NCBI RefSeq assembly: GCF_019646055.1
Contig: NZ_JAESFE010000001.1
Coordinates: 512,466 to 576,465, forward strand
Direction: 5' to 3'
DNA length: 64,000 nt
DNA from: Sodalis sp. CWE
Lineage (GTDB): Bacteria > Pseudomonadota > Gammaproteobacteria > Enterobacterales > Enterobacteriaceae
The notes beneath the pieces were generated by a model. The model was not told the origin of the DNA, did not search any database, and worked only from the letters and a program-made list of their open reading frames with translations. The position numbers and the translations under genes are program-made. Numbering within the stretch: position 1 is the stretch's first letter; each line of letters begins with the position of its first letter. Shown in pieces: positions 1-59,604 of this stretch.

Positions 1-732
1 AAAAACCTACAAGGAATAAAACTTTCAAAACCAAAACAAATCCACTTACAAGTAGTTGGTATTTTGAATTTGAATGGACAATTGGATCACCATCTTGTAT
101 TAATGCCTTTATCAGATGCTCAACAATATTTACAAGAAAATAAAAACGTATGTGGAATAGCTATCAAAGTTAACAATGTCTTTAACGCCAACAAGTTAGT
201 AGATCAAGCAGGAAGGGTAACTAATACTTATGTTAAGATTCGAAGTTGGATTGGCACATATGGTTATATATATAATGATATTCAGATGATTCGTAAAATT
301 ATGTATCTATCTATGATGCTGATAGTTGGAATTTCTTGTTTCGGGATTATTTCTGTTTTGGCAATGGTTGTGAAAGAAAAAAATATGGATATCGCAATAT
401 TGCGAACGTTAGGAGCCAGAAATAAACTGATCCACTTTATCTTTGTTTGGTATGGATTCTTGTTAGGGTTAGCAGGTAGTTTAATTGGAATTGTAATGAC
501 TTTAATGACTATCATAAATTTACCTCTGATAGTAAGGGAATTAGAAAAATTCTATGGTCATAAACTATTATCTAGCGGTATCTATTTTATCAACTTTCTA
601 CCTATTGAATTATCTTGGAAAGATATAGTTAATACAGTAATAATAGTATTATTAATTAGCGTACTAACAAGTTGGTATCCAGCTCAGCGCGCGAGTCATA
701 TCAATCCAATTAAAATATTAACTGGTCGATAA
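1..732 (+). CDS. lolE: LolE, lipoprotein-releasing ABC transporter permease (5' end outside window)
   Basis: This is the C-terminal part, about 243 residues, of an inner-membrane permease of the LolCDE complex, which extracts outer-membrane lipoproteins from the inner membrane and hands them to LolA. The frame is open from base 1, so the gene begins upstream of the window; the apparent start at 64 is only an internal TTG. The stretches SWIGTYGY, DIQMIRKIMYL and WYPAQRASHINP match E. coli LolE more closely than LolC. At least three hydrophobic segments of the FtsX-like permease domain are visible, around bases 300-365, 425-515 and 625-665. The C-terminus is complete. In E. coli nagK and cobB follow lolE; here only a possible cobB remnant follows. 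Confidence 0.93.
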   Translation, partial: KNLQGIKLSKPKQIHLQVVGILNLNGQLDHHLVLMPLSDAQQYLQENKNVCGIAIKVNNVFNANKLVDQAGRVTNTYVKIRSWIGTYGYIYNDIQMIRKIMYLSMMLIVGISCFGIISVLAMVVKEKNMDIAILRTLGARNKLIHFIFVWYGFLLGLAGSLIGIVMTLMTIINLPLIVRELEKFYGHKLLSSGIYFINFLPIELSWKDIVNTVIIVLLISVLTSWYPAQRASHINPIKILTGR

Positions 733-768: not shown

Positions 769-894
769 ATGGAAATGCTGAATTGTCATGATTTAGTTAG
801 ATTTCAAAAGAAAAAAAGATTTAAACAACAGCGACAACGTGCAAATATTTTTCGTTTAAATGGATCTCAGTGTGTTCTAAAAATTCCATTTTAG
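769..894 (+). pseudogene. cobB: Relic ORF resembling the N-terminal extension of CobB deacylase
   Basis: A 41-codon ORF begins 36 bases after the lolE stop, with an AGGA ribosome-binding site about ten bases upstream. Its segment HDLVRFQKKKR...IF aligns without gaps to the basic N-terminal extension of enteric CobB (HRLSRFRKNKR...IF), with about 11 of 23 positions identical as recalled. In E. coli cobB lies just beyond nagK downstream of lolE, so the position fits. The NAD-binding sirtuin domain is absent: the frame stops at 892-894 and nothing downstream resembles the GAGISAESGI motif. It is either a decayed gene or a retained small peptide. The identification rests on remembered homologues and a short basic stretch. 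Confidence 0.45.
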
Positions 895-23339: not shown

Positions 23340-24833
23340 TTAGCTATCTAATGTCACTGATCTTACTAATGAAATAAGAGTTGTAGGATATAAACCAAAT
23401 AACAACAATAGCGAAGAAGAGAAAACTACAACTATTTTAGTTAATCCGTCACTCAATGTTTCACTAGATGAAACGTTATCATATCGAGTTTTTTTCGATA
23501 ATGGCAGAAACATATTAATTATAATGCGCATATAGTAAAATAGTCCAATAGTGTTAGATATAATTATTATACTAGTTAATAAAAAGAAATGATCCTTTAC
23601 TTTTTCACCTAAAGCAAGAATATAGCACTTACCAATAAAACCAAGGGTCATAGGTATTCCTGCCAAGGAAGAAAACATTATTGTCAGAACAAAGGTTAAA
23701 AATGGATGATGCCAAAATAAACCACGGTAAGAATATAATGAATCCTTTTCATTTTGATAAAAATTGGATTTTAAGTTTATTATGGTAAATATTCCAAGAC
23801 TAGCAAAAAGATATCCAATTAAGCAAATACCAATAGCTTCCAATGAAAATATATGATTAGTTTGCATTGTAATCAATCCAACTAGTAAATAACCAAAATG
23901 AGAAACAGAAGAATAACCCATGATCCGTTTGATGTTATCCTGATTTATAGCCATCAAGTTTCCAAATAACATGGAAGCGCATGCAATAACTATCAATGTT
24001 AGTTGAATTGAATGACTATTCATAATTACTGTAGACAAAAAAAGACGGGTGACAATTGTAAATATTGCAATTTTGCTAGAAGTGGATAGTAAAGCTGATA
24101 CTAAAACTGGAGCGCCCTGATAAACATCGGGAGTCCATAAGTGGAAAGGTACTAACGATAATTTAAAACCAATGCTAACTATCATCAATCCTAAACCCAC
24201 CAAAAGTACTGGTTGTGTTAAGTATGTTGTGCTGTTATCATATATTTTCTCACAAAAGGAAGAAAAAGATAACTGACCTGTTTGGACATATACTAAAGCT
24301 ATACCAAAAAGTAAAAAAGCTGATGAAACTGAAGATAGAAGCATATATTTAATACTAGCCTCCAATGAGGATCTTTGCTGAATTATATAACCGATCATTC
24401 CAAAAAATGGCAGCGAAGTTAGTTCAATACCAATAAAAAAAGTTATTAAATGTTTAGTGTTAATTAACAAAATACATCCCATAAGAGAAATTAACATCAG
24501 TAAATAGAATTCATCTCGATTTCCTGAATATTCATCCAACCAAGCATATACTTGCATGCTAATTATTAGACTAGCTATTAATATCAATCCAGTATAAAAC
24601 AAGGAATACTTATCGACTCGTATCAATGAAGTCACATCTATTGATGGTGGATTGTTTTGAACAATAAACCAAAGTGACGCTAGAGCTAGTATTTGACCAA
24701 AAATTGTTAGAATAAAGCTAATAAAGTGATTGCGCTTCCACGCAGTGCATAACACTGCAACCATGACTGTTGATCCAATAATTAAAAGCGGCAATAATGC
24801 GATTAATTGTTGATGCAATAAGTTTATTTCCAT
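23340..24833 (-). CDS. nuoN: NADH-quinone oxidoreductase subunit N
   Basis: NuoN is one of the three antiporter-like proton-pumping membrane subunits of complex I. It has 497 residues (E. coli 485) with about 14 hydrophobic segments. Conserved stretches include FIGIELTSLPFFG with its glutamate, SLEASIKYMLLSSVSS, KLSLVPFHLWTPDVYQGAP and IKRIMGYSSVSHFGYL. It is the last gene of the operon, and its start overlaps the nuoM stop by ten bases, suggesting translational coupling. Confidence 0.96.
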   Translation of the reverse strand: MEINLLHQQLIALLPLLIIGSTVMVAVLCTAWKRNHFISFILTIFGQILALASLWFIVQNNPPSIDVTSLIRVDKYSLFYTGLILIASLIISMQVYAWLDEYSGNRDEFYLLMLISLMGCILLINTKHLITFFIGIELTSLPFFGMIGYIIQQRSSLEASIKYMLLSSVSSAFLLFGIALVYVQTGQLSFSSFCEKIYDNSTTYLTQPVLLVGLGLMIVSIGFKLSLVPFHLWTPDVYQGAPVLVSALLSTSSKIAIFTIVTRLFLSTVIMNSHSIQLTLIVIACASMLFGNLMAINQDNIKRIMGYSSVSHFGYLLVGLITMQTNHIFSLEAIGICLIGYLFASLGIFTIINLKSNFYQNEKDSLYSYRGLFWHHPFLTFVLTIMFSSLAGIPMTLGFIGKCYILALGEKVKDHFFLLTSIIIISNTIGLFYYMRIIINMFLPLSKKTRYDNVSSSETLSDGLTKIVVVFSSSLLLLFGLYPTTLISLVRSVTLDS

Positions 24834-26386
24834 AAGGTAGAGTCATCTTCCTGTTTATGGTGAAAAGATAAAGCAAATTCAGACAATAAATTAGGATCTA
24901 AAATTTGCTTTATGGTGCTAAAAGAAACATCCATAATCAGATATGGAAAAAATCCAAAAAGTATTATTAATACTGCCAGTGACAAAACAATCAATTTTTC
25001 ACGTAACGTTGAATCTGAAAGTGAGTTCAAAGATCTCTCTGGCCCGTTATAAACAGAATAGATTATCATAAGCGAACAAATCGATACAAACACCAAACCA
25101 AACGTAGCAGTCACTGCAATCATTGGATCAATTTGAAAATTACCGAACAGAGTGATAATCTCACCAACAAAATTGATAGTCCCAGGGATTCCTAATGTAG
25201 CAATTGTAAAAAATAAAAATGATGTAGGAATAAAATTTAATCGTTTGCATAATCGACCTATGCTCTGTATATCACGTTTTTGCGAACGTTCATATATTTG
25301 TCCACAAACAATAAACATTCCAGACGCGGACAATCCATGAGCAATCATTTGTATTACGGCACCCTGACAGGCAAGTTGATTACCACTGTAAATCGCAATT
25401 AATACAAGACCCATGTGAGATATTCCGATGTATGCAATAAGGCGCTTAATATCTGTTTGTAACAAAGCTACCAAAGCACCGTAAAAAATGTTAATTAAAC
25501 CTAACCACATAGCAATCGGTGCAAAATGATATGAAGCATGAGGAAACAAAGGTAAAATAAAACGTAATATTCCATAAGCCGCTGTTTTGAGTAACACTCC
25601 TGCTAAATCAACTGATCCAGCAGTTGGTGTATAACTATGAACATCCGGCAACCAACCATGTAATGGGACTATCGGAAATTTAATTGCGAAAGATAAAAAG
25701 AAGCCTAACATAAGTAATAGTTCTTTCTGATGTGACATTGGAGTATTTTTTAAATGTTCATAATCGAATGTCCAAAATCCAGTTGCGCTGTAATGTGTCA
25801 TTACTAAGCCAAAAATAGATACTAACATTACTAAGCCACTTATTTGGGTATAAATACAAAATTTCATTGCAACAGAAACCTTATCTTTATAGTCGGTTTT
25901 GCTATTACTTCGCCCCCATAGTACAATGAGAAAAAACATCGGCAAAAGCATCATTTCCCAAAATAAAAAGAAAAGAAACATATCAATTGCCAAGAATACA
26001 CCAATTACGCTAGTAAAAATCCACAGAAGATTGAAGTAAAATAATCCTCGATGATTTTGTACTTCACGCCATGAACAAAGAACAGCTAGAATTCCGAAAA
26101 ACCCCGTCAAGGACACCATTAATATCGATAAACCATCTAGAGCAAGATGAATGTTTATGTTAAAACGAGGAATCCATGGATATAGAAACTCTATCTTCCA
26201 TTTTGTTAACTTAAGCTTCCCTTGATCTAGATTGTCCAACTGCCATAAAAATAATGATAAAGTTAACGTGAAAACCATGGTAATTAAAGCTATCCAGCAA
26301 GGTGTTTTTTTGTTTTCCAAACGTTCACATGACCAACATAGTAGACCTCCAATAAAAGGAATAAGAACTAGACAAGGTAACAACAT
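24824..26386 (-). CDS. nuoM: NADH-quinone oxidoreductase subunit M
   Basis: NuoM is an antiporter-like proton-pumping subunit of complex I. It has 520 residues (E. coli 509). The key glutamate of the fifth helix is in FWEMMLLPMFFLIVLWG, the mid-membrane lysine in SFAIKFPIVPLHGWLPDVHS, and a further conserved run is DIKRLIAYIGISHMGL. GGAAA lies upstream of the start. The spacer to nuoL is 100 bases, longer than in E. coli. Confidence 0.96.
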   Translation of the reverse strand: MLLPCLVLIPFIGGLLCWSCERLENKKTPCWIALITMVFTLTLSLFLWQLDNLDQGKLKLTKWKIEFLYPWIPRFNINIHLALDGLSILMVSLTGFFGILAVLCSWREVQNHRGLFYFNLLWIFTSVIGVFLAIDMFLFFLFWEMMLLPMFFLIVLWGRSNSKTDYKDKVSVAMKFCIYTQISGLVMLVSIFGLVMTHYSATGFWTFDYEHLKNTPMSHQKELLLMLGFFLSFAIKFPIVPLHGWLPDVHSYTPTAGSVDLAGVLLKTAAYGILRFILPLFPHASYHFAPIAMWLGLINIFYGALVALLQTDIKRLIAYIGISHMGLVLIAIYSGNQLACQGAVIQMIAHGLSASGMFIVCGQIYERSQKRDIQSIGRLCKRLNFIPTSFLFFTIATLGIPGTINFVGEIITLFGNFQIDPMIAVTATFGLVFVSICSLMIIYSVYNGPERSLNSLSDSTLREKLIVLSLAVLIILFGFFPYLIMDVSFSTIKQILDPNLLSEFALSFHHKQEDDSTLWK

Positions 26387-26486
26387 AACGTGTTTATTTC
26401 CTAAATTTTATAATAATGTTTGAAACAATAAATATTATAAATTCTCACAATTTCTAACTAAAAACAATTGCGAGGATTATTTGATT

Positions 26487-28361
26487 TTAAATGAATATTA
26501 AAAACGATAATAACACAAATATTGCACCAAGACCTATTGATGCTATGTACCATCTTATCTGTCCATTTTCACTCATCGTTAAAATTCGCCTAATCCACAG
26601 TATTAATAAAGCAGTTACATTATCTATTATTTTTTTAACTGGGTCATATGTTATTGTTCTTGCAATGGTAACGTAGGGTTCAACAAAGATTTTTTTGTAA
26701 ATCCAATCAAATCCCCAAGCATGAAACCATAAAATCGTTAAAAAACGTCCTAATTTATTATCCGTTATAATTTTTATGAAATGGCACTTAGAAATCCAAA
26801 CAACTGCTGCTAATAAAATACCAGCAAAACAAGTTGCGCTCGATACGATTTCTAGTATTAGTTTTTGATTATAATTGCAATGATATTGTTGATCGATTGG
26901 AAAGAATCCGGATAACGGAAGCATCATGGCCATCCAAGCTCCAAAAAAAGTTGATAACGTTAAGAAGGTTAGAAATGAAAGATAGTAGTTGATTGTATGG
27001 TAGCGAGTATGAATTTTAATTTTTTCATTTCCATGAAAAATCAAAAAAATCATGCGAAAAGTATAAGTGGAAGTAATAAACGATCCTAACAATCCAACAA
27101 TGACCAAAATCGAATGCCCATTAGCCATAGCATGCCACAGAATGTCTTCTTTAGAGAAAAATCCTGCCGTAAACAGCGGAAATGCAGACAGCGAAGATCC
27201 TCCAATTAAAAAAGAAATATACATAAGTGGCATTGATTTTCTTAATCCCCCCATTCTAAAAATATTTTGTTCTTGACGACAGGCCAATATAACTGAACCA
27301 GCTGCTAAAAATAACAGTGATTTAAAAAAAGAATGGGTCACTAAATGGAAAATAGCAGCTTCCCATGCTTGAATACCTAATGCTAAAAACATATAGCCTA
27401 CTTGCCCCATTGTGGAGTAAGCTAAAATTCGTTTAATATCAGTTTGTACCAAAGCAGTAAATCCAGCCAGCACTAAAGTTATTGCTCCTATAATTCCAAC
27501 AAGATGCAGTACATTAGTAGCCATTAAAAATAAGTGATGAGTTCTAGCAATTAGATATACACCAGCGGTTACCATGGTAGCAGCATGAATTAACGCCGAG
27601 GCTGGAGTAGGTCCAGTCATAGCATCCGCTAACCATCCTTGCAGGGGAAATTGTGCTGACTTTCCAACTGCTCCACCCAATAGTAATAGAGTTATTAAAG
27701 TAATTGTTAGAGAATTTTTTGTTATTTTTTGAGGTATTAGTGTGATTATCTCTTGAAGATTGAGGGTCCCAAATTTATTGTATAGCATAAAAAGTGCAAA
27801 AACTAATAATACATCTCCGAACCTGGTAATAATGAATGCTTTCATAGCTGCCATACCATTTTTTGGTTCAGGATAGAATCCAATAAGTAAATAACTACAA
27901 AGACCAACACCTTCCCATCCAAGATAAATCAATAATAAATTATCTGCTAATGTTAGCAGTATCATATTGGCAATAAATAAATCAGTATAAGCAAAGAAAC
28001 GAACATAATTATCTGTCTCATTCATGTACCAAGAAGCATAGAGTTGAATAAAAAATCCAACTCCAGTAACAACACAGACCATTGTTAGTGATAAACAGTT
28101 AAGATTGAACACAATTGAAATATGAAAATCATCCAATACTATCCAGTTCCATAATGTTTGAATATATTCCAAAGTGCCATTAGTGGTATTTCCATATGTA
28201 CTAGAAAAATCTAGTGCTATAAAAAAGGTGATTAATGCTGCTACTCCAATACTTCCAACACCAATTATTGTAGAAACAGTTTCGCTCCAACGACCCTGTG
28301 AAAATGTAAGTAATAGAAATCCACAAAAAGGAAATAATGGAACTAAATAAACCAAATTCAT
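26487..28361 (-). CDS. nuoL: NADH-quinone oxidoreductase subunit L
   Basis: NuoL is the distal proton-pumping subunit of complex I. It has 624 residues (E. coli 613). Conserved features are [17 protein letters not shown] with the key glutamate, [21 protein letters not shown] with the lysine, and [17 protein letters not shown]. The C-terminal part keeps the hydrophobic region that forms the long lateral helix lying along NuoM and NuoN. Its start overlaps the nuoK stop by four bases (ATGA), indicating coupling. Confidence 0.96.
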
Positions 28362-28660
28362 TCTCGTAGCTCGTTTATGCGATCAATATCTAGGGTTCCA
28401 TTGCTTCGATAAAGCAACAATAGCATTGCTAGTCCAATGCTGGCTTCTGCAGCAGCTAAGGTTACTATTAAGATATACATAACCTGTCCATCTGCATGAA
28501 TCCAATAACTACCTCCTACTACGCAAGCTAATGCTGAAGCATTCATCATAATTTCCAATCCTAATAAAATAAAAAATAAATTTCGACGGACGATCATACC
28601 TGTTAATCCTAATATAAAAAGGATTCCTGCTAGGATAAGACCGTGTGACAATGGGACCAT
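28358..28660 (-). CDS. nuoK: NADH-quinone oxidoreductase subunit K
   Basis: NuoK is a small three-helix membrane subunit in the proton pathway. From 28660 it has 100 residues, the E. coli length; the start aligns [10 protein letters not shown] with MIPLQHGLIL and has GGAGA about nine bases upstream. An in-frame ATG seven codons earlier was not used because the Shine-Dalgarno sequence lies between the two. Both conserved membrane glutamates are present, in [10 protein letters not shown] and [10 protein letters not shown]. Confidence 0.95.
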
Positions 28661-28725
28661 ATTTTGTTTCTCTCCATTCATAAACCAGTATTTTCTCTGA
28701 TTGAATAAAATTAATAATGTGCCAA

Positions 28726-29217
28726 TTATTTATCATGACCAAAATGATAAGCTACTATTAATCCTGCCAATAGTAGCATAGACACTATTTCAACTACTAA
28801 GATGTAAGAACTAAACAGTGCAATTCCAACAGTTTTTGTTGATATTAAATTCCCAGTAATATGCTCTTCACCATAATCATTTATAAAATAAATTAATATT
28901 ATTAGAAATAGCAGTGAAATCATTGATGACCCAATCCAATTGGCAATTTTTCTTATCCATGAATGTTTTTTTTTATTTTCATTGTTTTTTACATTTAGAA
29001 CCATGATTACAAATACGAATAAAACCATAATAGCGGCAGCATAAATGATAATTTCTAATGCTCCGGCAAAATGCGCTCCTAAAGAAAAGAAAACACAAGA
29101 AATAGATAAAAATGAAAAAATAAGATACAATAATGAATATACTGGCTGAGTGTGAGTGATAACACGAAACGTTGATAAAATTGCTAGAAGTCCAGAGAAA
29201 TAGAATATTAGATGCAT
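28726..29217 (-). CDS. nuoJ: NADH-quinone oxidoreductase subunit J
   Basis: NuoJ is a five-helix membrane subunit next to the quinone chamber. From 29217 it has 163 residues (E. coli 184). AAGGA lies seven bases before this start, and [14 protein letters not shown] aligns with the E. coli N-terminus. [21 protein letters not shown] matches the conserved third helix. The C-terminus ends at VAYHFGHDK and lacks about 20 hydrophilic residues of E. coli NuoJ. A run of nine A occurs in the coding strand (T 28966-28974), encoding lysines. A 65-base gap separates it from nuoK. Confidence 0.94.
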
Positions 29218-29279
29218 GTCTTTTCCTTGAAAGAGCATTGATTAATTTTCTTTGTGTTATAAAGCTATTTGGTCAAGAT

Positions 29280-29822
29280 TTAGGGTAATAAGTTTTTTAC
29301 GTCAATAGGCTTGTTCTCGTTTTTTGCTTCGCCTTTTCTTTTTCCAGAAATTTCTGTTCCAGAAATGCGATAAAAATCATAATCTGGGTATTTTCCTGGT
29401 CCTGAAATTAGTAAATCTGTTTTTTCATATACTAAATCCTGTCTTTTGTACTCGCTCATTTCAAAATCTGGTATAAGTTGAATACAAGCAGTTGGGCAAG
29501 CTTCTTCGCAAAAACCGCAGAAAATACAACGAGAAAAATTAATACGAAAAAATTCTGGATACCATCGACCATCTTTAGTCTCCGCTTTTTGCAGAGAAAT
29601 ACAGTCAACTGGACAAACGACAGCACATAAGTTACATGCTACACATCGTTCGTTTCCGTTCGAATCACGTGTTAAAACAATTCTACCTCGAAAGCGAGGA
29701 GATAGATTTACTGGCACTTCAGGATACATACGCGTTTCACGTTTGCTAAATGCCTGCATACCAATTATCAAAATACTTCTTAAAATCGTTCCAAATCCAA
29801 TTATTAAATCTTTTATTGTCAT
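29280..29822 (-). CDS. nuoI: NADH-quinone oxidoreductase subunit I
   Basis: NuoI carries the two 4Fe-4S clusters N6a and N6b, which pass electrons towards the quinone-site cluster N2. It has 180 residues, the E. coli length. The two ferredoxin motifs are [15 protein letters not shown] and [15 protein letters not shown]. It lies 62 bases before nuoJ and 14 bases after the nuoH stop. Confidence 0.96.
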
Positions 29823-29836
29823 AATCTACGCACTAC

Positions 29837-30769
29837 TTAATGTAGGTTGTATAAGATAAAAGAAGCAGTCATTAACATATTTAATAGCGCTATAGGTAAA
29901 CAAATTTTCCAACCAAAAGCCATCATTTGATCGTAACGTGGACGCGGCAATGCGGCACGAATCAAAACGAATAATATCAAAAAAAAAGCGGTTTTCACTA
30001 CGAACCAAAATAATGGTGGTAACCATGGTCCATGCCACCCACCAAGGAACACCGTTACTGCTAGTCCTGAAACGGTCACAACATTAATATACTCCCCAAT
30101 GAAAAATAAGCCGAATTTCATTCCTGAATATTCTACGTGGTATCCATCGGCCAACTCTTGTTCTGCTTCAGGTTGGTCAAAGGGATGACGATGACATACT
30201 GCTATAGCAGCTAACATAAAAGTAATAAAACCAAAAAACTGAGGAACTATATTCCATAAATATTCTTGTGCGTCAACAATCTTACTAAGATTGAATGAAT
30301 CAGTTTGGATCACTACACCCATTAATGATAATCCTAGAAATACTTCATAACTTAATGTTTGCGCTGCAGCTCTTATGGCTCCAAGAAGAGCATATTTATT
30401 ATTGCTTGACCATCCGGCAAATAATAAAGCATACACAGTTAATCCAGACATCATCAGAAAAAATAATATTCCGATATTTAAATCAATAATCACTAAAGAA
30501 GGAGTTATCGGAATTACAGAAAAAGTAACTAACGGCAATAAAAAAGAAGCAGCCGGAGACAACACAAAAATACCTCGATCAGAAAACGATGGAACCCAAT
30601 CTTCTTTAAACATCATTTTTAAAATATCGGCAAGTATTTGCAACGACCCTCCCCAACCAACGCGATTTGGACCATACCGATTTTGAAACAAGCCTAAAAG
30701 GCGTCGTTCAATAAAAACCATATAAGAACTAAAAAAAACTACCATAAGTAAAATCAGAATTACTTTCAT
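29837..30769 (-). CDS. nuoH: NADH-quinone oxidoreductase subunit H
   Basis: NuoH forms the quinone-binding chamber and the junction between the peripheral and membrane arms. It has 310 residues; E. coli has 325. The difference is at the N-terminus, where about 15 residues of the first helix are missing; no in-frame start upstream would restore them. Conserved stretches are [50 protein letters not shown] with its acidic residues, and [14 protein letters not shown] site lies just before the ATG. Confidence 0.94.
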
Positions 30770-30795
30770 CGATTCACCAAAGTATCGCTTACAAT

Positions 30796-33540
30796 TTAAA
30801 TAACTTGAGTTTTAACTTTTTGTAAGTTTTTAATATAATGGCCTGACAGAATTGGTGGAATACCTGGCAAACCTAGAGGAAGTCCAATTTGTCCGGTACT
30901 TAAATAGCGACTAACTCGTGCCGGCAAGCACATGTTTATTCCCATACAATTAAATGAAAATAATGCAGTATTATTGTCAATATTTAGTTTTTTAGCATCA
31001 GACTGACTTATTACTATATATAGTTTCGGCATTTTATTTTGGATGGCTGAGGAACGTTGAGATGTTTCCTCACTGCCAAATAAATGCCAATAAGGTGCTA
31101 CATACCACTCATTATCTTTAGATGGCAAAAGTGCAATTGGAACATTACTAAAATAATCTAAGTTGCTTGTTTTTAACTCCAACAAACGTACTCCAGGATC
31201 ACCGTATTTTAAATGTCCTCCAACTGTATCTTGAAATTTATTCCATGCTTGCGAAGAGTTCCAGCCTGGCGTCCAAGCAAAAGTTATTTGCTGATTCGGT
31301 GCTTGGAAAGCGATGCTTCCTTCCATTGAGAAAGTAAACATAGTATCGTGATCGTATGGAACACGAGGTTCATGAATATTGATATTGGCATTCATTGAAG
31401 TACGGCCGCTATATCGATTTGGTCCTCGAGCTATCTTCTGTCCTTGAATGCGAAAACTAGCGTCTGGCGCAGCTTTCTTGATATCAGCTAAGTGCGGCAA
31501 TGCTTCAATGAGATGATCAATAACATGATCAAGTTTCGTCCAATTTGTTTTTTTATATGTATGCATTGAATGAATTGAGTAAAGCCAACGCCAGCTAGCT
31601 AATATTATCGACTGATCATCATAATATGCGGGATCATATACTTGAAAAAACCGCTGCGCGCGACCTTCTTGATTAATAAGAGTACCACTACTTTCGGTAA
31701 AGTTAGCTGCCGATAGAATCAAATTAGCTTTTTCTTGTAAAGAAGAATGTAGATGATCCAGAACGATAAAATAACTTATTTTATCCAAAGCAGCATTAAC
31801 GCGAGTCTCTGATGCATGACGATAAAGATCATTTTCCAAAACAATTAAACTATCTGCAGCTCCCTGTTCTAGCATATCCAAAGCTTCGTCTATGCTTTTT
31901 CCGCCTATCATTGTAATTCCCATACTGTTAGCTTCGGAAAGGATAAAACTAATTCCAACGTTTTTGCCTTGTTTTTTCAAGGCAAGAGCAATGTTAGTGG
32001 CCCCAGCAATTAATTCCTTGCTTCCAGCACCGCTACCTGAAATGATAAGTGGTTTTTTTGCGTTAGCTAATGTTTTTGCGATTAAATCAATCTTACTTTG
32101 TAAGGCTGTATCCAAATCATTCACTGTTGGTGCTGTTTTGTCCAGTGAATGAGCAATAGCAAAGCTTAAACGGGCTTGATCACTTACAGACGCGTAATAA
32201 TTCCAAGCAGCAATATCATCTAAACGAGTTTTATCAACACTAGTAATAAACAAAGGATATCTAGAATTTTGCCCAACGTTTATTATGGCGGCTGCATGCC
32301 AGTTGGCAATTTTTTGTTGTGCAGCTATTTCACGTACCTTTCCTTTAATTGCTTGACGAATTGCTAATGCAATACGTGCACCTGTCTGGGTTACATCTTC
32401 TCCTAATATCAAAATAGCATCATAATTTTCTATTTCACAGAGTGAAGGTGTATGAATCCCAGAATTTTGCAAAATACTAAGCATTAACAATAATTCCTCT
32501 TTTTCGCTATGAGAAACTCCAATATAGAAATTATTCATTCCTACTAATTTAAGTAAAGCGAAATTACTTTCCATGCTAGCTCGTGCTGAACCAATACCAA
32601 TTAACTTATGTGCGTGACGTAGTATTTTAGATGCTTCTTGCACAGCTTCATTAGCATTTAGCATAACCCATCTATTTCCACGACGAATCATTGGATGCCG
32701 AGGACGATCTTTAAGATTAACATAATCGTATCCAAAACGACCACGATCACATAAAAAATAACCATTAATACATCCGTTGTAACGGTTTTCAATACGTCGT
32801 AATTTTCCATAACGCTCTTCTAAAATAATATTGCAACCAATGCTACATTGATGACAAATGCTTGGTGAAAACTGCATGTCCCATTTACGACTATATCTTT
32901 TAGAAAAAGTTTTATCAATGAGTGCACCAGTTGGGCAAATTTCTACTAAATTTCCAGAAAATTCGCTGTCTAATTCTCCTTCTTGGTAGCGACCAAAATA
33001 AATGTTATCACGAGCTCCATATACACCAAAATCGTTACCATCAGCATAGTCTTTATAATATCGTACACAACGATAACAAGAAATACATCGATTCATATCA
33101 TGGGAAATAAACGGTCCTAAATACTGATTAAAATGGGTACGTTTACTAAATCGATAACGACGAGAAATGTGACCAGACATCATCGTCATGTCTTGAAGAT
33201 GACAACTCCCCCCTTCTTCACAAACTGGACAGTCGTGCGGATGATTGATCATTAACCATTCTATTACACTGCGGCGAAACTCTCTTGCTTCATGGTCTTT
33301 GATGGAAATCCACAAACCATTTTTAACTGGCGTCATACAAGACATAACTATTTGACCCAAATTGTTTTTATTATTTTGATATTGTTTAACTGCACACTGT
33401 CGACAAATGCCGACACTACCTAATGCCGGATGCCAGCAAAAATAAGGAATATCAATGCCTAAAGTTAGACACGCCTCTAAAAGGTTGCTGGATTCGTTAA
33501 CCACTTTATATTCTTTTCCATCTATATTAATAGTGATCAT
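30796..33540 (-). CDS. nuoG: NADH-quinone oxidoreductase subunit G
   Basis: NuoG is the large iron-sulfur subunit of the peripheral arm. From the ATG at 33540 it has 914 residues (E. coli 908); an upstream in-frame TTG at 33555 was not used. Cluster ligands are visible in order: the 2Fe-2S set in [18 protein letters not shown] and [21 protein letters not shown], the pair CISCYRC with EICPTGA, and the enterobacterial N7 set in CHQCSIGCN with FLCDRG. A degenerate molybdopterin-type domain fills the C-terminal half. All clusters found in E. coli NuoG appear to be kept. Confidence 0.95.
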
Positions 33541-33641
33541 ATAATTACCAATCAAAATAGTAAGATAAACATATATTCTACTTCTTTTTTAAAACATAGA
33601 ATTAATCTGAAAAACGTTTATTAACATGATTCAGTGAGTTT

Positions 33642-34967
33642 TTACTGTACATTTTTAATAGTGTATTTATTGTCTAAATATTTAATGTTTACACCTTTTT
33701 CAAATTCGGAACGAAAATACTTAATTGCACTTTTCAGTGGTCCTATTGCTCCTAGTGCATGAGCACAGAAAGTTTTTCCTGGACCGAGAAACTGGCATAA
33801 TTGCTCCAAAATCTTAATATCTTCAGGTTGTCCTTGGCCATTTTCTAATGCATATAATAAACGAACGCCCCATGGAAGACCATCACGACAAGGGGTACAA
33901 AGCCCACAAGATTCACGGGAAAAAAACTCTTCAAGATTACGGATTAATGATACCATGTTGATTTCATTGTCAACTGCTATAGCCAACGCAGTACCAAGAC
34001 GGCTTCCAGCTTTAGAGATACCTTCAAAATCCATAGGAAAATCTAAGTGATCTGGGATAAGAAAATCAGTTCCAGCACCACCCGGCTGCCAAGCTTTTAA
34101 TTTCAAACGACGCTGCATACCGCCAGCATAATCTTCGAAGATTTCACGAGCAGTAATACCGAATGGTAACTCCCATACCCCAGGATTTTTTACACGACCA
34201 GAGAAACCCATCATTTTAGTACCAGTGTCTTTACTTTTCCCTGCTGCAATATTACGATACCAATTAACCCCTCTCTCTAGAATTGCTGGTATGTTACATA
34301 AAGTTTCAACATTATTGATACAGGTCGGTTTTCCCCATGCTCCTACTTCAGCAGGAAAAGGAGGCTTTGCGCGTGGATTAGGTCGACGTCCTTCAAGTGA
34401 ATTAATTAATGCAGTTTCTTCACCGCATATGTAACGACCAGCTCCTGTATGAAGAATTAGTTCAAAAGAAAAATTACTTCCTAAAATATTTCTACCAAGA
34501 AAACCAGTTTCATTTGCTTCAAATATTGCGCGACGAAGATTAATTTCAGCCTTAACATATTCACTACGCAAGAAAATGTAACCGCGATAACTTTTTAGTG
34601 CAAAAGCAGAAATTAACATTCCTTCTATTAAAAGATGTGGTAGTTGTTCCATTAATAAACGATCCTTATATGTACCTGGTTCCATTTCATCTGCATTACA
34701 TATTAAATATCGTATTTTCTCAGAACAATTTTTAGACATGAGGCTCCATTTTAATCCAGTAGAAAAACCAGCTCCGCCTCGCCCTTTTAATCCGGAATCT
34801 AGTACGAGTTTGATGATATCATCATGACTCATTTCTCTTATCGCTTTACGTGCACCAGAATAACCATTTTTTTTTTGATATTCGGTGATCCATATCGGTT
34901 GACCATCTTCACGTAATCGCCATGTTAATGGATGTGTTTCTTCCAATCGAAGAATGACTCTATTCAT
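33642..34967 (-). CDS. nuoF: NADH-quinone oxidoreductase subunit F
   Basis: NuoF binds NADH and FMN and holds cluster N3, the electron entry point of complex I. It has 441 residues (E. coli 445). The nucleotide/flavin motif is [16 protein letters not shown], and [14 protein letters not shown] lines the flavin. The N3 ligands are in [11 protein letters not shown] and the later FCAHALGAI. The start overlaps the nuoE stop by four bases. A run of ten A in the coding strand (T 34867-34876) encodes the lysines near residue 31 and leaves the frame intact. Confidence 0.96.
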
Positions 34968-35452
34968 TTATATTTCTCTAGTAATAAAAAGACATCTTCT
35001 GATGTTACATGTGCGTAAGTATCATCATCTATCATTATGGTTGGAGCATGATCACAATTGCCTAAACAGCACGTAGGAAGTAAGGTAAAGTGTGCATCAT
35101 TGGTTGTTTGCCCAGATTTGATGTTTAATAACCGTTCTAGTTCTTTAAGAACTTTCTGATAACCGGTAATATAACAAACCACACTATCGCAATATCGAAT
35201 AATATGTCTGCCTACTGGCTGACGAAAGATTTGACTGTAAAAAGTAGCTACTTCTTCAACATCGCTACTTGGAATATTCAATATCTCTGCGATAGCAGAT
35301 ACAGCTTCATCTGGAACCCAATGTCGATATTTTTGTACAACCTTGAGCGCCTCAATTAGAGCTCCTCGTGGGTGTTCATAATGATATTTGTGATGCTCAA
35401 TAGCTACGCGTTCCTCATGACTTAATTCGAATGCTTTGATTAAAGTCTTCAT
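34964..35452 (-). CDS. nuoE: NADH-quinone oxidoreductase subunit E
   Basis: NuoE is the thioredoxin-like 2Fe-2S subunit holding cluster N1a, beside the flavin in NuoF. It has 162 residues (E. coli 166). The four cysteine ligands lie in CDSVVC and [10 protein letters not shown]. The gene overlaps nuoF by four bases and follows nuoCD after 15 bases. No clear ribosome-binding site precedes its ATG, so coupling to nuoCD is likely. Confidence 0.96.
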
Positions 35453-35467
35453 TGTTATTAATGTTGA

Positions 35468-37270
35468 TTAACGATCTACGTCTGACATAACAAAATCGAT
35501 GCTTCCAAGATATACAATTAAATCTGATATGAGACTACCTTGTATCACTGATGGAATTTGCTGTAAATGAGGAAAGCTGGGTGTTCGGATGCGTGTTCGA
35601 TAACTCATTGTTCCACCATCGCTAATAAGATAATAGCTATTTATCCCTTTAGTAGCTTCTATCATTTGAAATGATTCATTGGCTGGTATAATTGGACCCC
35701 AAGAAACTTGTAAGAAGTGTGTGATAAGAGTTTCGATATGCTTCAAAGTACGCTCTTTTGGAGGAGGAGTAGTTAGTGGATGATCAGCCTTAAACGGTCC
35801 TGTTGGCATGTTATTTAAACATTGTTTAAGAATTCGAAGACTTTGTAATATTTCTTCTATCTTTAGCATAACTCGACTATAACAGTCACTAATTCCACTA
35901 CCTATCGGTACTTCAAAATCAAAATTTTCATAGCCGGAATATGGACGCCACTTACGTACATCAAATCCAATGCCAGTAGCACGCAACGCGGCTCCTGTTA
36001 CTCCCCAATCTAAAGCTTCTTTTGCTCCATAAGCAGCTATGCCCTCCGCACGGGCGCGAAGTATACTATTTTTTAGTGCTACTTTAATATAAGTATTTAA
36101 TCTTTTTGGTAACCAATTAAGGAACTCACGTAATAAGTTCTCCCATCCACGTGGTAAATCTTGTGCAACGCCGCCAATACGAAACCAAGCTGGATGCATG
36201 CGGGCACCAGTAATGGCTTCAATAATATCATAAATCTTCTGACGATCAGTAAATGCTAGAAAAATGGTAGTCATTCCACCTATATCTTGTATATAAGTGC
36301 TAACGTATAATAAGTGACTATTAATGCGAAACAATTCTGATAGCATAATTCGAATTACATTAACGCGATCTGGTACTATAATACCAGCTAACTTTTCTAC
36401 TGCTAGTACATAAGGCATTTCATTAATACAGCCACCGAGATATTCAATGCGATCAGTATAAGGAATAAATCCATGCCAAGACTGACGTTCTCCCATCTTT
36501 TCAGCACCACGGTGGTGGTAACCAATATCAGGAACACAATCAATAATTTCTTCACCGTCCAACTGGAGTACAATACGAAACGCGCCATGTACGGAAGGAT
36601 GATTAGGTCCTAAATTAAGAAACATGAAACTTTCATTACCTGTTCCACGTTTCATACCCCATTCTTCTGGTTTAAAAGTCAAGTCATCCATTTCTAAATC
36701 TTCCTTTTGTTTTGTAAGAAAAAAAGGATTAAATTCTGTCGCTCGAGCGGGATAATCTTTACGCAATGGATACCCCTTCCAGGTTTTAGGCATTAAAATA
36801 CGCGTCAAATTTGGATGTTCGTCAAAAATTACGCCAAACATTTCCCAAGTTTCTCGTTCATACCAATTAGCATTAAGAAAAATACTAGTACAACTAGGTA
36901 AATGTAGATCGTATTCTGATAAAGCAACCTTCAATATAACATCACGATTACGATCAATAGAAATTAAGTGATAAAAAATAGTAAAATCTTTTGTAGGAAG
37001 ATTGTTTTTGCAAGAGCGAAGACGTTCATCTATCCCATGTAGATCATAGAGCATTAGATATGGTTTTGGCAGATTCTTCAAAAATTTAAGAACTTCAAGG
37101 AGTTGTTCACGTTTTATCCAAATAATTGGAATATCGGTATAAGCTAACTGAACGTTAAAAACGTCTGATGCAAAATGATTACCTAATTCATTAATAATCG
37201 TATCATCTTCTAGATAAATCGATTTTTTCCAGAAATGAGGATAGTCCGTACACCGTGTCAACTCTTTCAT
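35468..37270 (-). CDS. nuoC: NADH-quinone oxidoreductase fused subunit C/D
   Basis: This is the enterobacterial fusion of NuoC and NuoD (often called nuoCD), 600 residues as in E. coli. The NuoC part (about residues 1-190) contains [22 protein letters not shown]. The NuoD part contains [20 protein letters not shown] and [17 protein letters not shown], whose histidine lies at the quinone head-group site, and ends in [16 protein letters not shown] precedes the start. The fusion itself supports an enterobacterial origin. Confidence 0.97.
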
Positions 37271-55476: not shown

Positions 55477-55494
55477 GTAGAAACTGATTTATAT

Positions 55495-55567
55495 GTCTCT
55501 GTAGTTAAAATGGACATAACAATCCCCTCCTAAGGGCTAGTTACAGGTTCGACTCCTGTCAGAGACG
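55495..55567 (+). tRNA. argW: tRNA-Arg (anticodon CCU, reads AGG)
   Basis: The 73-base cloverleaf has acceptor arms GTCTCTG (55495-55501) and CAGAGAC (55560-55566) and discriminator G. The T arm has loop TTCGACT, and the anticodon loop CTCCTAA gives CCU. It matches E. coli argW closely and lies at the matching map position between aroC and gltX. CCA is not encoded. The second pair of the anticodon stem appears to be a T-C mismatch (ATCCC with GGGCT), where E. coli has G-C. Confidence 0.95.
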
Positions 55568-57380
55568 TTTTTCTTGCTCATTGCAGACATTCATATACTG
55601 AGAATATTTCTAAAAATTTTTAATAAAAAAAATCAGTTATATGTCTTATATGTAAGTTTTTTAAAAAAATTCAAAGAAAGTAAGTCATTTATAAGTTAAT
55701 TGAGTAAAACATAACCTAATTGAAAAATAGAAATTCTTTAAAACTATCTAAATATAGAGTTTCTCATTTAGAATTAACAATTATCTATCTATTTTAGATA
55801 CAATACATATAAATCAAATCATAATTTCTTATGGAGGTTTGATTGTTGAGGTAATGATTCAATTTTCTAAATAAATTAGCTTATTATTTAATTATTGAGA
55901 CCATTTGATTTTTTAGAAAAAATTTAAAGAATTATTTAATTTTAAAAAAAGGTAAACCTTATTTAAAGTTTTTATTGGGATCGATAAAGATAATTTATAA
56001 TGGAAAGATTATTATAAATAAATAGCTTTTTAATTATTGTTTGGATTGAATTATTTACATAGATATTTTTGTTTTTTTTAAAAAAATTATAAACGATAGT
56101 CGTATTTAATAACGAAATGACTTAAGAAATAATTTTTATTGTTTACTATTTAGTTATATGACAAAATCAACTTTTCATTATTTAATAACAATTCTTCTAA
56201 AAAGTTTTCAAGAAAATAAAACTATTTAGAATAGCAATCTCTTCTTAAAAAGAAATTCTTAATGAAGAAACGCTTTGATGAAGATTTGCTTAATTCTAAA
56301 AAAAACCAAGTTTATTTAAACTACTCAATTTATCTGAACTACTGCTTTTGACTAATAAAGGAAATAACTTTTTAGAAAATAAGCAGAAAGTAGTCGGTTT
56401 CGTTTTTTTAGGCAATCATCTCTGATCATAACTATTTCAATGTTGATAAGTATCTTAAGCGTATCTTATACCTTTCCTCTTTTTTTTCGTATTATCAGAA
56501 TTACGCAATCTAAAACAAATAAAAAAAACAAACTAGAGTCATTTAAATGACATTTAACTTTCTAAAATTTAGTCAACTAGAAAATTTTATTATTTATAGA
56601 AATAAACTTGAAACAAGTTCTGATTCTTAAAAATGTCTCTTTTATCGCAATAAAAGATCGATAGAATTTATATCTTTCATGAGCTCTTACATAATTATAT
56701 TGTTATGATAATATATTTTTATACCTTTAATTTTAAATAAATTACTCTTACCTACTTCTTCTAAACTCAGATTTGTCGATAAAAAAGAGGATCCATAATT
56801 TTTTTAATGTATAAAAAACGATTTGCTCCCAATGCTTATTAAGCATATTCTCATGCTTTCTTAAAGCAACAGTAAAAATTTTGCAGTGATGATTATTGGC
56901 TTCTGATTTGTTGAAGCTTTACTTATTGTTATTAAGTGTGTTAGTTCTCACAGTATTCTTGGAATCTATATTTTGCTTAAAAAATAGAAAGACGATCAAT
57001 AAAATTTTAAAAATCATAAAATTAATAGTATTTTAGTTATCAAATTAATATTAAATGAGCTATTACTTTGATTGGATTACATAATAAAATAAAGAAATTA
57101 TTTTCACGTTTAAAAAATTTTGACAACATTTTAATATCATTTTTTAATTCATTTTCTATTGGAATTTTTTTAAAAATTGTTAAAGACTTCAATAATCATA
57201 AAAGAAAAGTAGTTTTTACTTTTCCTTAAATTGGTCTGAAATATTGTTCTGATTCTTGTGTTGAACTTCGTTCTGGCTAAATTAGTAATTTAAAATATCT
57301 ATTGCACAAAGCGACTATTTTATTGGTCTATAAAAAGGAGTGCGTCATTATTGATAATGGCAACTCTTAATGTTTTTTGA
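55568..57380. other. 1.8-kb AT-rich spacer between tRNA-Arg and tRNA-Ala
   Basis: No gene is recognised. Two short hairpins, ATGCTT-ATT-AAGCAT and TGCTTT-CTT-AAAGCA, lie near 56832-56867. A GGAGGT at about 55833 is followed only by stop codons. A 31-codon open stretch near 56412-56510 matches nothing known. Confidence 0.55.
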
Positions 57381-57453
57381 TGGAGCTAAGCGGAATCGAA
57401 CCGCTGACCTCTTGCATGCCATGCAAGTGCTCTTCCAACTGAGCTACAGCCCC
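57381..57453 (-). tRNA. alaW: tRNA-Ala (anticodon GGC)
   Basis: On the minus strand the 73-base cloverleaf begins GGGGCTG and ends TAGCTCC plus discriminator A. The third pair is G3-U70, the identity element of alanine tRNAs. The anticodon arm CTTGCATGGCATGCAAG gives GGC. It lies 56 bases downstream of the gltX stop on the same strand and may be cotranscribed, matching E. coli alaWX next to gltX. Only one copy is present, and CCA is not encoded. Confidence 0.96.
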
Positions 57454-57509
57454 AGTATCTAATTGGTTCATAAAAAGCTAAAAATCAATTTTTTTAAAAT
57501 TTTCGAAAT

Positions 57510-58934
57510 TTATAAACAAAAATCACCCTTCTTCGATTGGATCAGTTTAATAAACCTATTAATCCGAGATAAACAACGTGATTGACCTATAGCATGCATA
57601 GTAACATCAAGGGAAGGAGAACAACATCCTCCAGTGATAGCAATACGTATCGGCATACCAATTTTCCCTATATTAACTTGTAGCTCTTTAGAGATATTTT
57701 CAATAACTACGTGAATGTTGTCCGGCATCCATTCTTTAATTTCTTTTATCCTAGCATAGACTGTTTTTAAAATTGAAAGAGATTCAAAACATAAGTGTTT
57801 TTTGATCGCGTCAGAATCAAATTTATTAAGATCTTCTATATAGAAATAGTAACCGTTAGTTACTATTTCTTTTAAAGTTTTGCAACGACTACCCAATAAT
57901 TTTACTAAATCTGTTAATTGAGGTCCATTTTGGATATTAATTTCTTGTTTCTTTATTTGTAAAGCTAAATTCTTTACTACATAATCGATTGGCAGATGAT
58001 TAATATAATAATGGTTGAGCCATAGTAATTTTTTGATGCTAAAAGTACTTGCTGATCTACTAATAGAATTGAAGTTAAATAGTTGCTTCATTTCTTCGAT
58101 ATTAAAAATTTCTTGATTGCCATGAGACCATCCAAGTCGTACTAGACAGTTTAATAATGCTTCCGGGAGAAAGCCGTTATTACGATATTGCATAATATCT
58201 ATTGCACCATGGCGTTTTGAAATCTTTTTTCCACTATTATCAAGAATAAATGGTACATGAGCATATTTTGGAATCGACAATCCTAATGCTCTAAAAATAT
58301 TAATTTGGCGAGGAGTATTATTAATATGCTCTTCTCCCCGGATTACATGGGATATTTTCATATCAGAGTCATCGACTACTGAACAAAAGTTATAAGTAGG
58401 AGTTCCATCAGAACGACGAATGATAAAATCATCTAACTCTTGATTACTGAATTTGATAGGTCCGTAAATTAAATCATTAAATATTACTACTCCGTCTCTT
58501 GGATTACGGAATCTTACTACAAAAGGTGTATCATCAGAATAATTTTTATGCTTATTACGACAACAACCATCGTAACGTGGTTTTTTTCCTTGGGCTATCA
58601 ACTCTGTCCGAAGTAATTGCAATCTTTTTTTTGAACAGTAACATAGATAGGCTGTACCTTTTAATAACATCTCATTAATTATGAAATTATATCTTTGAAG
58701 ACGCCGAGTTTGAAAATAGGGACCTTCGTCCCAATCTAGAGTAAGCCATATCATATCATTCATAATAGATTTAATTGCTGGTTGTATGGAACGCTTAGCA
58801 TCAGTATCTTCTATGCGCAATATAAACTTACCTCCATAGTGGCGAGCAAACAGCCATGAGTAGAGGGCGGTTCGTGCATTTCCAATATGCAAACAACCAG
58901 TTGGGCTTGGTGCAAAACGAGTTCTAATGTTCAT
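57510..58934 (-). CDS. gltX: Glutamyl-tRNA synthetase
   Basis: GltX charges tRNA-Glu. It has 474 residues (E. coli 471). The class I motif HIGH is HIGN in [14 protein letters not shown], and the KMSKS-type loop is KISKRHGA. The zinc-binding insertion keeps cysteines 98, 100 and 125 (LCYCS and GCCRN), but the position of E. coli His127 is asparagine here, with a histidine two residues further on. The anticodon-binding C-terminal domain is complete through [19 protein letters not shown]. No Shine-Dalgarno sequence is visible. The flanking tRNA genes match the E. coli order. Confidence 0.96.
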
Positions 58935-59116
58935 TGATCATAGTCATTAAAAAATAAAAATTTCGACAAAGTTTTTCTAAATTAGAAAACTAACTTTTTA
59001 GTTAGAAATAAACATTATTATTCTATCTAATTTTTTTAGCTCGATTAATCTTTCTTAAGAAAATAAAGTGAAAAAAACTGCCTTCCATAAAGAAAAATAT
59101 TCTAAATAGAAAATTA

Positions 59117-59146
59117 TTGACTTATTTTATTGTTTTCCTGTAGCAT
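59117..59146 (+). promoter_or_regulatory. Promoter of the tRNA-Val/tRNA-Lys operon
   Basis: TTGACT (59117-59122) and TAGCAT (59141-59146) are separated by 18 bases, and the predicted start lies about 13 bases before tRNA-Val. It is the best sigma70-type promoter seen in the window. Confidence 0.6.
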
Positions 59147-59165
59147 TACGAAAAGTGTCACAGTT

Positions 59166-59241
59166 GGGTGATTAGCTCAGCTGGGAGAGCACCTCCCTTA
59201 CAAGGAGGGGGTCGGCGGTTCAATTCCGTCATCACCCACCA
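59166..59241 (+). tRNA. valU: tRNA-Val (anticodon UAC), CCA encoded
   Basis: The acceptor arms GGGTGAT and ATCACCC pair fully. The anticodon arm CTCCCTTACAAGGAGG gives UAC, and the sequence is nearly identical to E. coli valU. The genome encodes the 3' CCA at 59239-59241. E. coli has three valine genes in this operon; one remains here. Confidence 0.97.
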
Positions 59242-59253
59242 TTTTTCCTTTGT

Positions 59254-59326
59254 GGGTCGTTAGCTCAGTTGGTAGAGCAGTTGACTTTTAATCAATTGGT
59301 CGCAGGTTCGAATCCTGCACGACCCA
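59254..59326 (+). tRNA. lysV: tRNA-Lys (anticodon UUU)
   Basis: The acceptor arms GGGTCGT and ACGACCC pair fully, and the anticodon loop CTTTTAA gives UUU. By eye it is identical to E. coli lysV except that CCA is not encoded. It lies 12 bases after tRNA-Val and shares its promoter. It is a substrate for MnmA. Confidence 0.97.
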
Positions 59327-59604
59327 AAATTTATCTTTTCAAGAATCTCTTCATCATTATTATTTACAAACGTAGATAGGAGTCTTAAACGTTGTTTTTA
59401 TGTCTATAAAATTCTCTATTTCAAAGAAATAGTAACATATCTCAATACTTTGAGAATTTAGTTGATAGGTCAATTTTTTACTATTATAGTTAATGAAATT
59501 ATAATATGAGAAGGCTTTCTTGATGTTTCAAGTGAATTAATGTCTTTAAAAAAGTTTTATAATGATTAAAAATTACAACAAATAATGATATTAATTTTAG
59601 ATTG

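Follow-up and report, generated by a model that had tools for sequence, protein, structure and literature searches.

The N-terminal extension of the sirtuin CobB probably persists as a separate small gene in a reduced symbiont genome with no recognisable sirtuin

The genome of Sodalis sp. CWE carries, within the 64,000-nucleotide stretch of DNA analysed here (hereafter the window), a 41-codon open reading frame (ORF) at 769-894 on the plus strand which, judging from the agreement of its sequence with its genomic place, is a homologue of the N-terminal extension of CobB. This extension has probably turned into a separate small gene, putatively translated and kept for a function that would be independent of deacetylation. 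An ancestor with the gene order lolE-cobB would have lost the sirtuin domain after about codon 40, where the frame now closes, and the shortened ORF would still be translated in the window and be kept there for a role without deacetylation. The CobB of free-living enterics would then combine two functions in a single polypeptide.

The window opens with the 3' part of lolE (1-732, plus strand), which leaves 243 codons in an open frame with at most 62% identity to LolE of relatives. The lolE stop codon ends at 732 and the ATG of the ORF follows 36 bases downstream, at 769; the frame is intact and runs to a TAG stop at 892-894, as the first-pass annotation had described it. A GTG start at 745 would give 49 codons instead of 41, and in alignments with Sodalis-type relatives it is an ATG at 775 that corresponds to the start of cobB. 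The ORF had also been credited with a ribosome-binding site of its own; a possible site, TGAGGA, can be read from the sequence at 753-758, but its GAGG (754-757) ends 11 bases before the ATG at 769, which is rather far for a ribosome-binding site. The 388 bases on the 3' side of the ORF (895-1282), which mark the place of the lost sirtuin domain, contain no ORF longer than 38 codons. They are followed by a convergent 459-codon ORF on the minus strand (1283-2662), presumably purB. The purB counterparts located beside lolE in eight reduced relatives show 60-69% identity to it.

The likeness to CobB is concentrated in a conserved core with the pattern L-V-R-F...A-N-I-F (793-852, 20 codons), in which a gap-free alignment over LVRFQKKKRFKQQRQRANIF gives 13 of 20 identical residues against the CobB of both G004 and G026, two large-genome relatives; the gap-free match of the HDLVRFQKKKR type to enteric CobB that had been proposed earlier therefore holds. 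Counted from the ATG at 775, there are 14 identities in 28 positions against four of six Sodalis-type sequences, while the remaining two give 13 and 15. A profile built from 13 CobB N-termini (A1), leaving out the window, Buchnera, G013, G103 and every other orphan, finds the window ORF at E = 3.7e-5 and nothing else at E ≤1 in that genome, and none of 5000 composition-preserving shuffles of the window peptide reaches its 26.3 bits, the best scoring 16.0. The same test on seven peptides gave 0/5000 in each case, so that alignment with CobB N-termini, suggested as a check at the outset, returned significant similarity. Among NCBIfam models, the only match of the ORF is the CobB model NF001755 (E 0.014, far below the cut-off for the whole protein). 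The ORF thus belongs with the CobB N-terminal extension by its similarity to the first ~33 residues of long CobB and by its place after lolE. Of 60 relatives searched with the window peptide alone, 17 gave a match at E 1, mostly by chance. No Pfam family scored above its cut-off with the ORF peptide, the sole match being an implausible one to Kinase-like below the cut-off; the only PDB match, to mitoribosomal S31 at E 1.4, is a chance hit, and tblastn against plasmids returned no match.

No sirtuin was detected alongside the extension. The window genome, assembled as two contigs totalling 797 kb, gives no match to SIR2 (Pfam PF02146) at E ≤1, in a search whose control was positive in 10 of 14 known genomes. 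At E 0.01, only 2 of 41 chosen genomes match (G075 and G118), and none is found in the window genome, G013, G103 or any of the 11 Buchnera. Frameshift-tolerant alignment of 883-1290 likewise detected no sirtuin remnant between the ORF and purB: the score of 28 (29 on the minus strand) compares with a shuffle mean of 25.3 and is reached by 18 of 100 shuffles. A likeness seen by eye just past the stop, ISKKEGL against ISAESGI, was discarded as 54 of 300 shuffles were equally good. The ORF is thus not a CobB/SIR2 sirtuin, its catalytic domain being absent; that domain was either deleted or has decayed past recognition, whereas the frame is preserved over the first 40 codons. This bears out the earlier proposal that the sirtuin was lost and a basic N-terminal piece survived at the place of cobB, with no SIR2 in the genome and the ORF following lolE.

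In the large-genome relatives nearest by LolE, cobB lies directly 3' of lolE (276 codons in G004), an arrangement shared by the more distant G024 and G035, while ~1 kb separates the two genes in other relatives. The first-pass annotation had cited the E. coli arrangement, with cobB just downstream of lolE-nagK; the nearest large-genome relatives have lolE-cobB directly rather than lolE-nagK-cobB. Profile A1 matched 282 of 392 genomes of the family sample at E ≤1, and the open frames among the matches listed had 190-390 codons, mostly cobB-sized. In an order-wide sample of 295 genomes, profile A3 gave 20 matches at E 0.001, of which 19 came from the window's own family; the remaining one, in a 492-codon frame of G660 (E 9.1e-4), seems fortuitous. 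Scanning further genome contigs for LolE yielded one locus, L021 of Candidatus Gillettellia cooleyia, with no CobB match in its 10.7 kb.

Loss of cobB at this place is also seen in Sodalis-type neighbours, where it has left different remains. In G026 (4.5 Mb; L027, 2234-2800), the cobB frame is broken after 188 codons, with the extension and the first part of the domain open, and by its sequence this cobB is probably inactive, although its extension is intact. In G075 (2.2 Mb), frameshifts run through both the extension and the rest of cobB. G075 thus keeps frameshifted pieces of the whole gene with a broken extension, and G026 the extension with most of the domain, while the window keeps only an open extension. 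The arrangement of lolE followed by convergent purB recurs in eight reduced relatives besides the window (L026 of G112, L056, L067, L071, L073, L074, L079 and L080); many symbionts no longer have what lay between the two genes, and its loss may have happened more than once.

An intact standalone extension in a genome without sirtuin was found in the window genome, in G013, in G103 and in all 11 Buchnera. With profile A1, the standalone frames of G103 (59 codons open, E 3.8e-11) and G013 (56 codons open, E 3.4e-8) were recovered together with that of the window (53 codons open), and in these three genomes the extension lies directly after lolE. The ORF of G103 (L085, L064) has ~58 codons, probably starts with GTG and has a phoP-like gene downstream of it on the opposite strand. 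Among 30 reduced genomes with lolE, an extension (E 0.01, at most 700 bases after lolE) was present only in G103, G013 and G118, leaving 27 of 30 without one, so that many symbionts can do without the extension. Profile A2, built with five Buchnera peptides and with G013, G118 and G103 among its members, matched 11 of 71 small genomes at E ≤0.3, but strongly only these last three. The 191-codon frame of G118 (L128, 1069-1641) encodes a CobB extension followed by a sirtuin domain of ~31% identity, in which the NAD-binding GAG motif is changed and the SIR2 match is weak and below the cut-off; to judge from the sequence, the sirtuin is probably no longer functional, although its extension can still be recognised. 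A LolE tree intended for counting independent losses suffered from base-composition and long-branch trouble, with 13 of 28 inner branches open; it does not draw the window together with G103, G013 or Buchnera.

The strongest case for retention comes from Buchnera, in which CobB is lacking according to the available text of PMC3571970. Across 23 chosen, mostly small genomes, A1 detected five Buchnera standalone frames of 38 to 61 codons (E 5.4e-5 to 3.3e-3), and with A2 the ORF was found in all 11 Buchnera genomes examined, in each case open from an ATG and 37-56 codons long. Over the first 37 codons, pooled pS was 0.505 and pN 0.135, a ratio of 0.27, and all 55 pairs had a pN/pS of 0.50 or less, where pairs share ancestry and are not independent of each other. 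The Buchnera orphan ORF is under purifying selection. In the nine Buchnera with adjacent lolE, mean pN was 0.105 for the ORF versus 0.197 for lolE, and the ORF had the lower value in 32 of 36 pairs; pS was similar (0.484 for the ORF and 0.433 for lolE). The lolE frames are open in these nine genomes (403-419 codons), but Buchnera lolE may be under relaxed constraint and hence a weaker yardstick for the ORF, since lolE of two Buchnera strains is classed as a pseudogene in the text available for PMC3246468. Nor is the better survival of the extension in Buchnera simply inherited slowness, because elsewhere the extension is less constrained than the sirtuin domain: 91 pairs among 14 other relatives gave a pN of 0.119 for the extension versus 0.066 for the first 100 sirtuin-domain codons. 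The sequence comparisons suggest that in Buchnera the CobB extension survives as a small, presumably translated protein that would need no deacetylase.

For the window itself, the genus sample consisted of one genome and selection was judged against an outgroup only. Identity of the core to G004 cobB was 21, 16 and 10 of 28 at codon positions 1, 2 and 3, and of 11 columns that do not vary among nine relatives whose extension is intact, the window ORF keeps 9 and has two changed. When neutral decay to the same divergence was simulated, an open frame with as many kept residues occurred in a fraction of 0.0001 of 20000 runs; this rejects neutral decay over the whole divergence, and does not reject it over the last part, as after a recent loss. 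The pI of the window peptide is the lowest of six peptides compared.

These data bear on the possibility that the ORF is a fresh relic, that is, that cobB was cut recently in the window lineage, its 5' piece being open by chance and bound to decay, with the Buchnera gene a separate story. Such an account fits the single sequence available for the lineage and several observations in other genomes: G112, whose LolE is the closest among the reduced genomes (62%), has the same lolE-purB junction and no ORF, there was no match after lolE in it or in 26 others of the 30 reduced genomes, cobB of G075 decays as a whole, and G026 represents an early stage in which the sirtuin frame is broken after 188 codons behind an intact extension. 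Against it stands the contrast within the window locus, where the sirtuin part has no trace above shuffles while the extension keeps its codon structure and the 9 invariant columns, and the fact that the extension is retained in Buchnera, G013 and G103; I therefore regard a fresh relic as possible but rather unlikely. Absence of the ORF from close relatives, named beforehand as grounds for refutation, does occur in G112, but the other such ground, a lack of similarity to CobB, did not materialise. Where the first-pass annotation had left the choice between a fresh relic and a retained small peptide undecided, the other genomes, through selection in Buchnera and retention in G013 and G103, favour the retained peptide; the case is firm for Buchnera and moderate for the window.

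A different reason for retention would be that the peptide is an accessory or regulatory part of the lolCDE operon, kept through translation with lolE, and the position of the ORF after lolE in the window, G013, G103 and 9 of 11 Buchnera would agree with this. However, two Buchnera genomes, G068 and G349 (L148, L149), have no LolE match genome-wide (searched with window LolE, E 1e-5) or near the ORF (searched with Buchnera LolE); the Baizongia strain of Buchnera has no Lol genes in a table of PMC3246468, as far as that source was available. The orphan ORF precedes gapA in both G068 and G349, and lies between mfd and gapA in G068. Since these genomes keep the ORF without lolE, the peptide is not kept for the sake of lolE. 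Moreover, the 27 of 30 reduced genomes that have lolE and no extension after it, and the many relatives in which cobB lies ~1 kb further on, also speak against a lolCDE peptide, which makes this role quite improbable.

Selection might also act on a conserved RNA or DNA element instead of a peptide, as the stretch is short and located behind an operon, but substitutions in Buchnera fall mainly on synonymous sites, with pN far below pS, and an Rfam scan of 400-1500 gave only a sub-threshold match to RT-9 (21.7 versus 46.1 bits, E 0.93), so that I consider such an element very improbable. In the Buchnera small-RNA literature searched, gapA, lolE, lolD and mfd did not occur. Finally, a chance likeness of basic peptides, which Arg/Lys-rich sequences readily produce as spurious matches, is practically negligible given that no shuffle of the same composition attained the score and that the ORF sits after lolE, where relatives have cobB.

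The window peptide resembles the ~37-residue extension of CobB-L, the long enterobacterial sirtuin isoform, in sequence, in place after lolE and in frame start, but differs in that no sirtuin follows, while the published roles of the extension, in the texts available, all act on the attached enzyme. These roles comprise oligomerisation and Zn2+ binding (available text of PMC10965786) as well as c-di-GMP binding and N-terminal acetylation by YiaC (available text of PMC8556138). No GGDEF match was found in the window genome, G013 or any of the 11 Buchnera, whereas G103 and G004 have one, and c-di-GMP control of CobB is therefore an unlikely reason for retention in the genomes without GGDEF. The standalone Buchnera ORF, behind lolE or its lost place and before gapA, has the same pattern R[FY]-K-KR...QR-R..IF as the window ORF and likewise lacks a sirtuin; it differs in being more basic, in its length of 37-56 codons and in a Buchnera-specific tail. 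Among titles and abstracts of the open-licence PMC matches listed, none described a standalone CobB N-terminal ORF.

The orphan peptides have a pI of about 11-12 with 10-15 Lys/Arg in 35-41 residues (12 of 58 in G103). Because the peptide is very basic and has conserved R/K positions together with an I-F pair, binding to RNA, the ribosome or another polyanion is tentatively put forward as its likeliest activity, though this is somewhat less likely than not to be the true one. AlphaFold folded the peptide on its own into two short helices and two strands, but at a mean pLDDT of 67.7 the model was too weak to use.

On balance, I incline to the view that the CobB extension is an independent module hidden in a sirtuin gene and unmasked by genome reduction, in that several symbiont lineages, Buchnera above all, would have kept a ~37-residue basic peptide without deacetylase, for a role (perhaps at RNA or the ribosome) unrelated to deacetylation or c-di-GMP. 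Buchnera-like symbionts keep little beyond essentials, and a small protein that outlives its enzyme suggests that the N-terminus of CobB also has a function in E. coli and Salmonella that has gone unrecognised. For these bacteria the literature, in the parts available, discusses the extension solely in terms of how it modifies the deacetylase. If this is true, the phenotypes of cobB deletions may mix two functions.

Two further observations concern the window at large. Its composition at 24001-36000 is unlike that of most of the window, with an AT skew of up to +0.146 (24001-28000) and a GC skew down to -0.116 (32001-36000). Four ordinary tRNA genes, Arg-CCT, Ala-GGC, Val-TAC and Lys-TTT, are located at 55494-59327.
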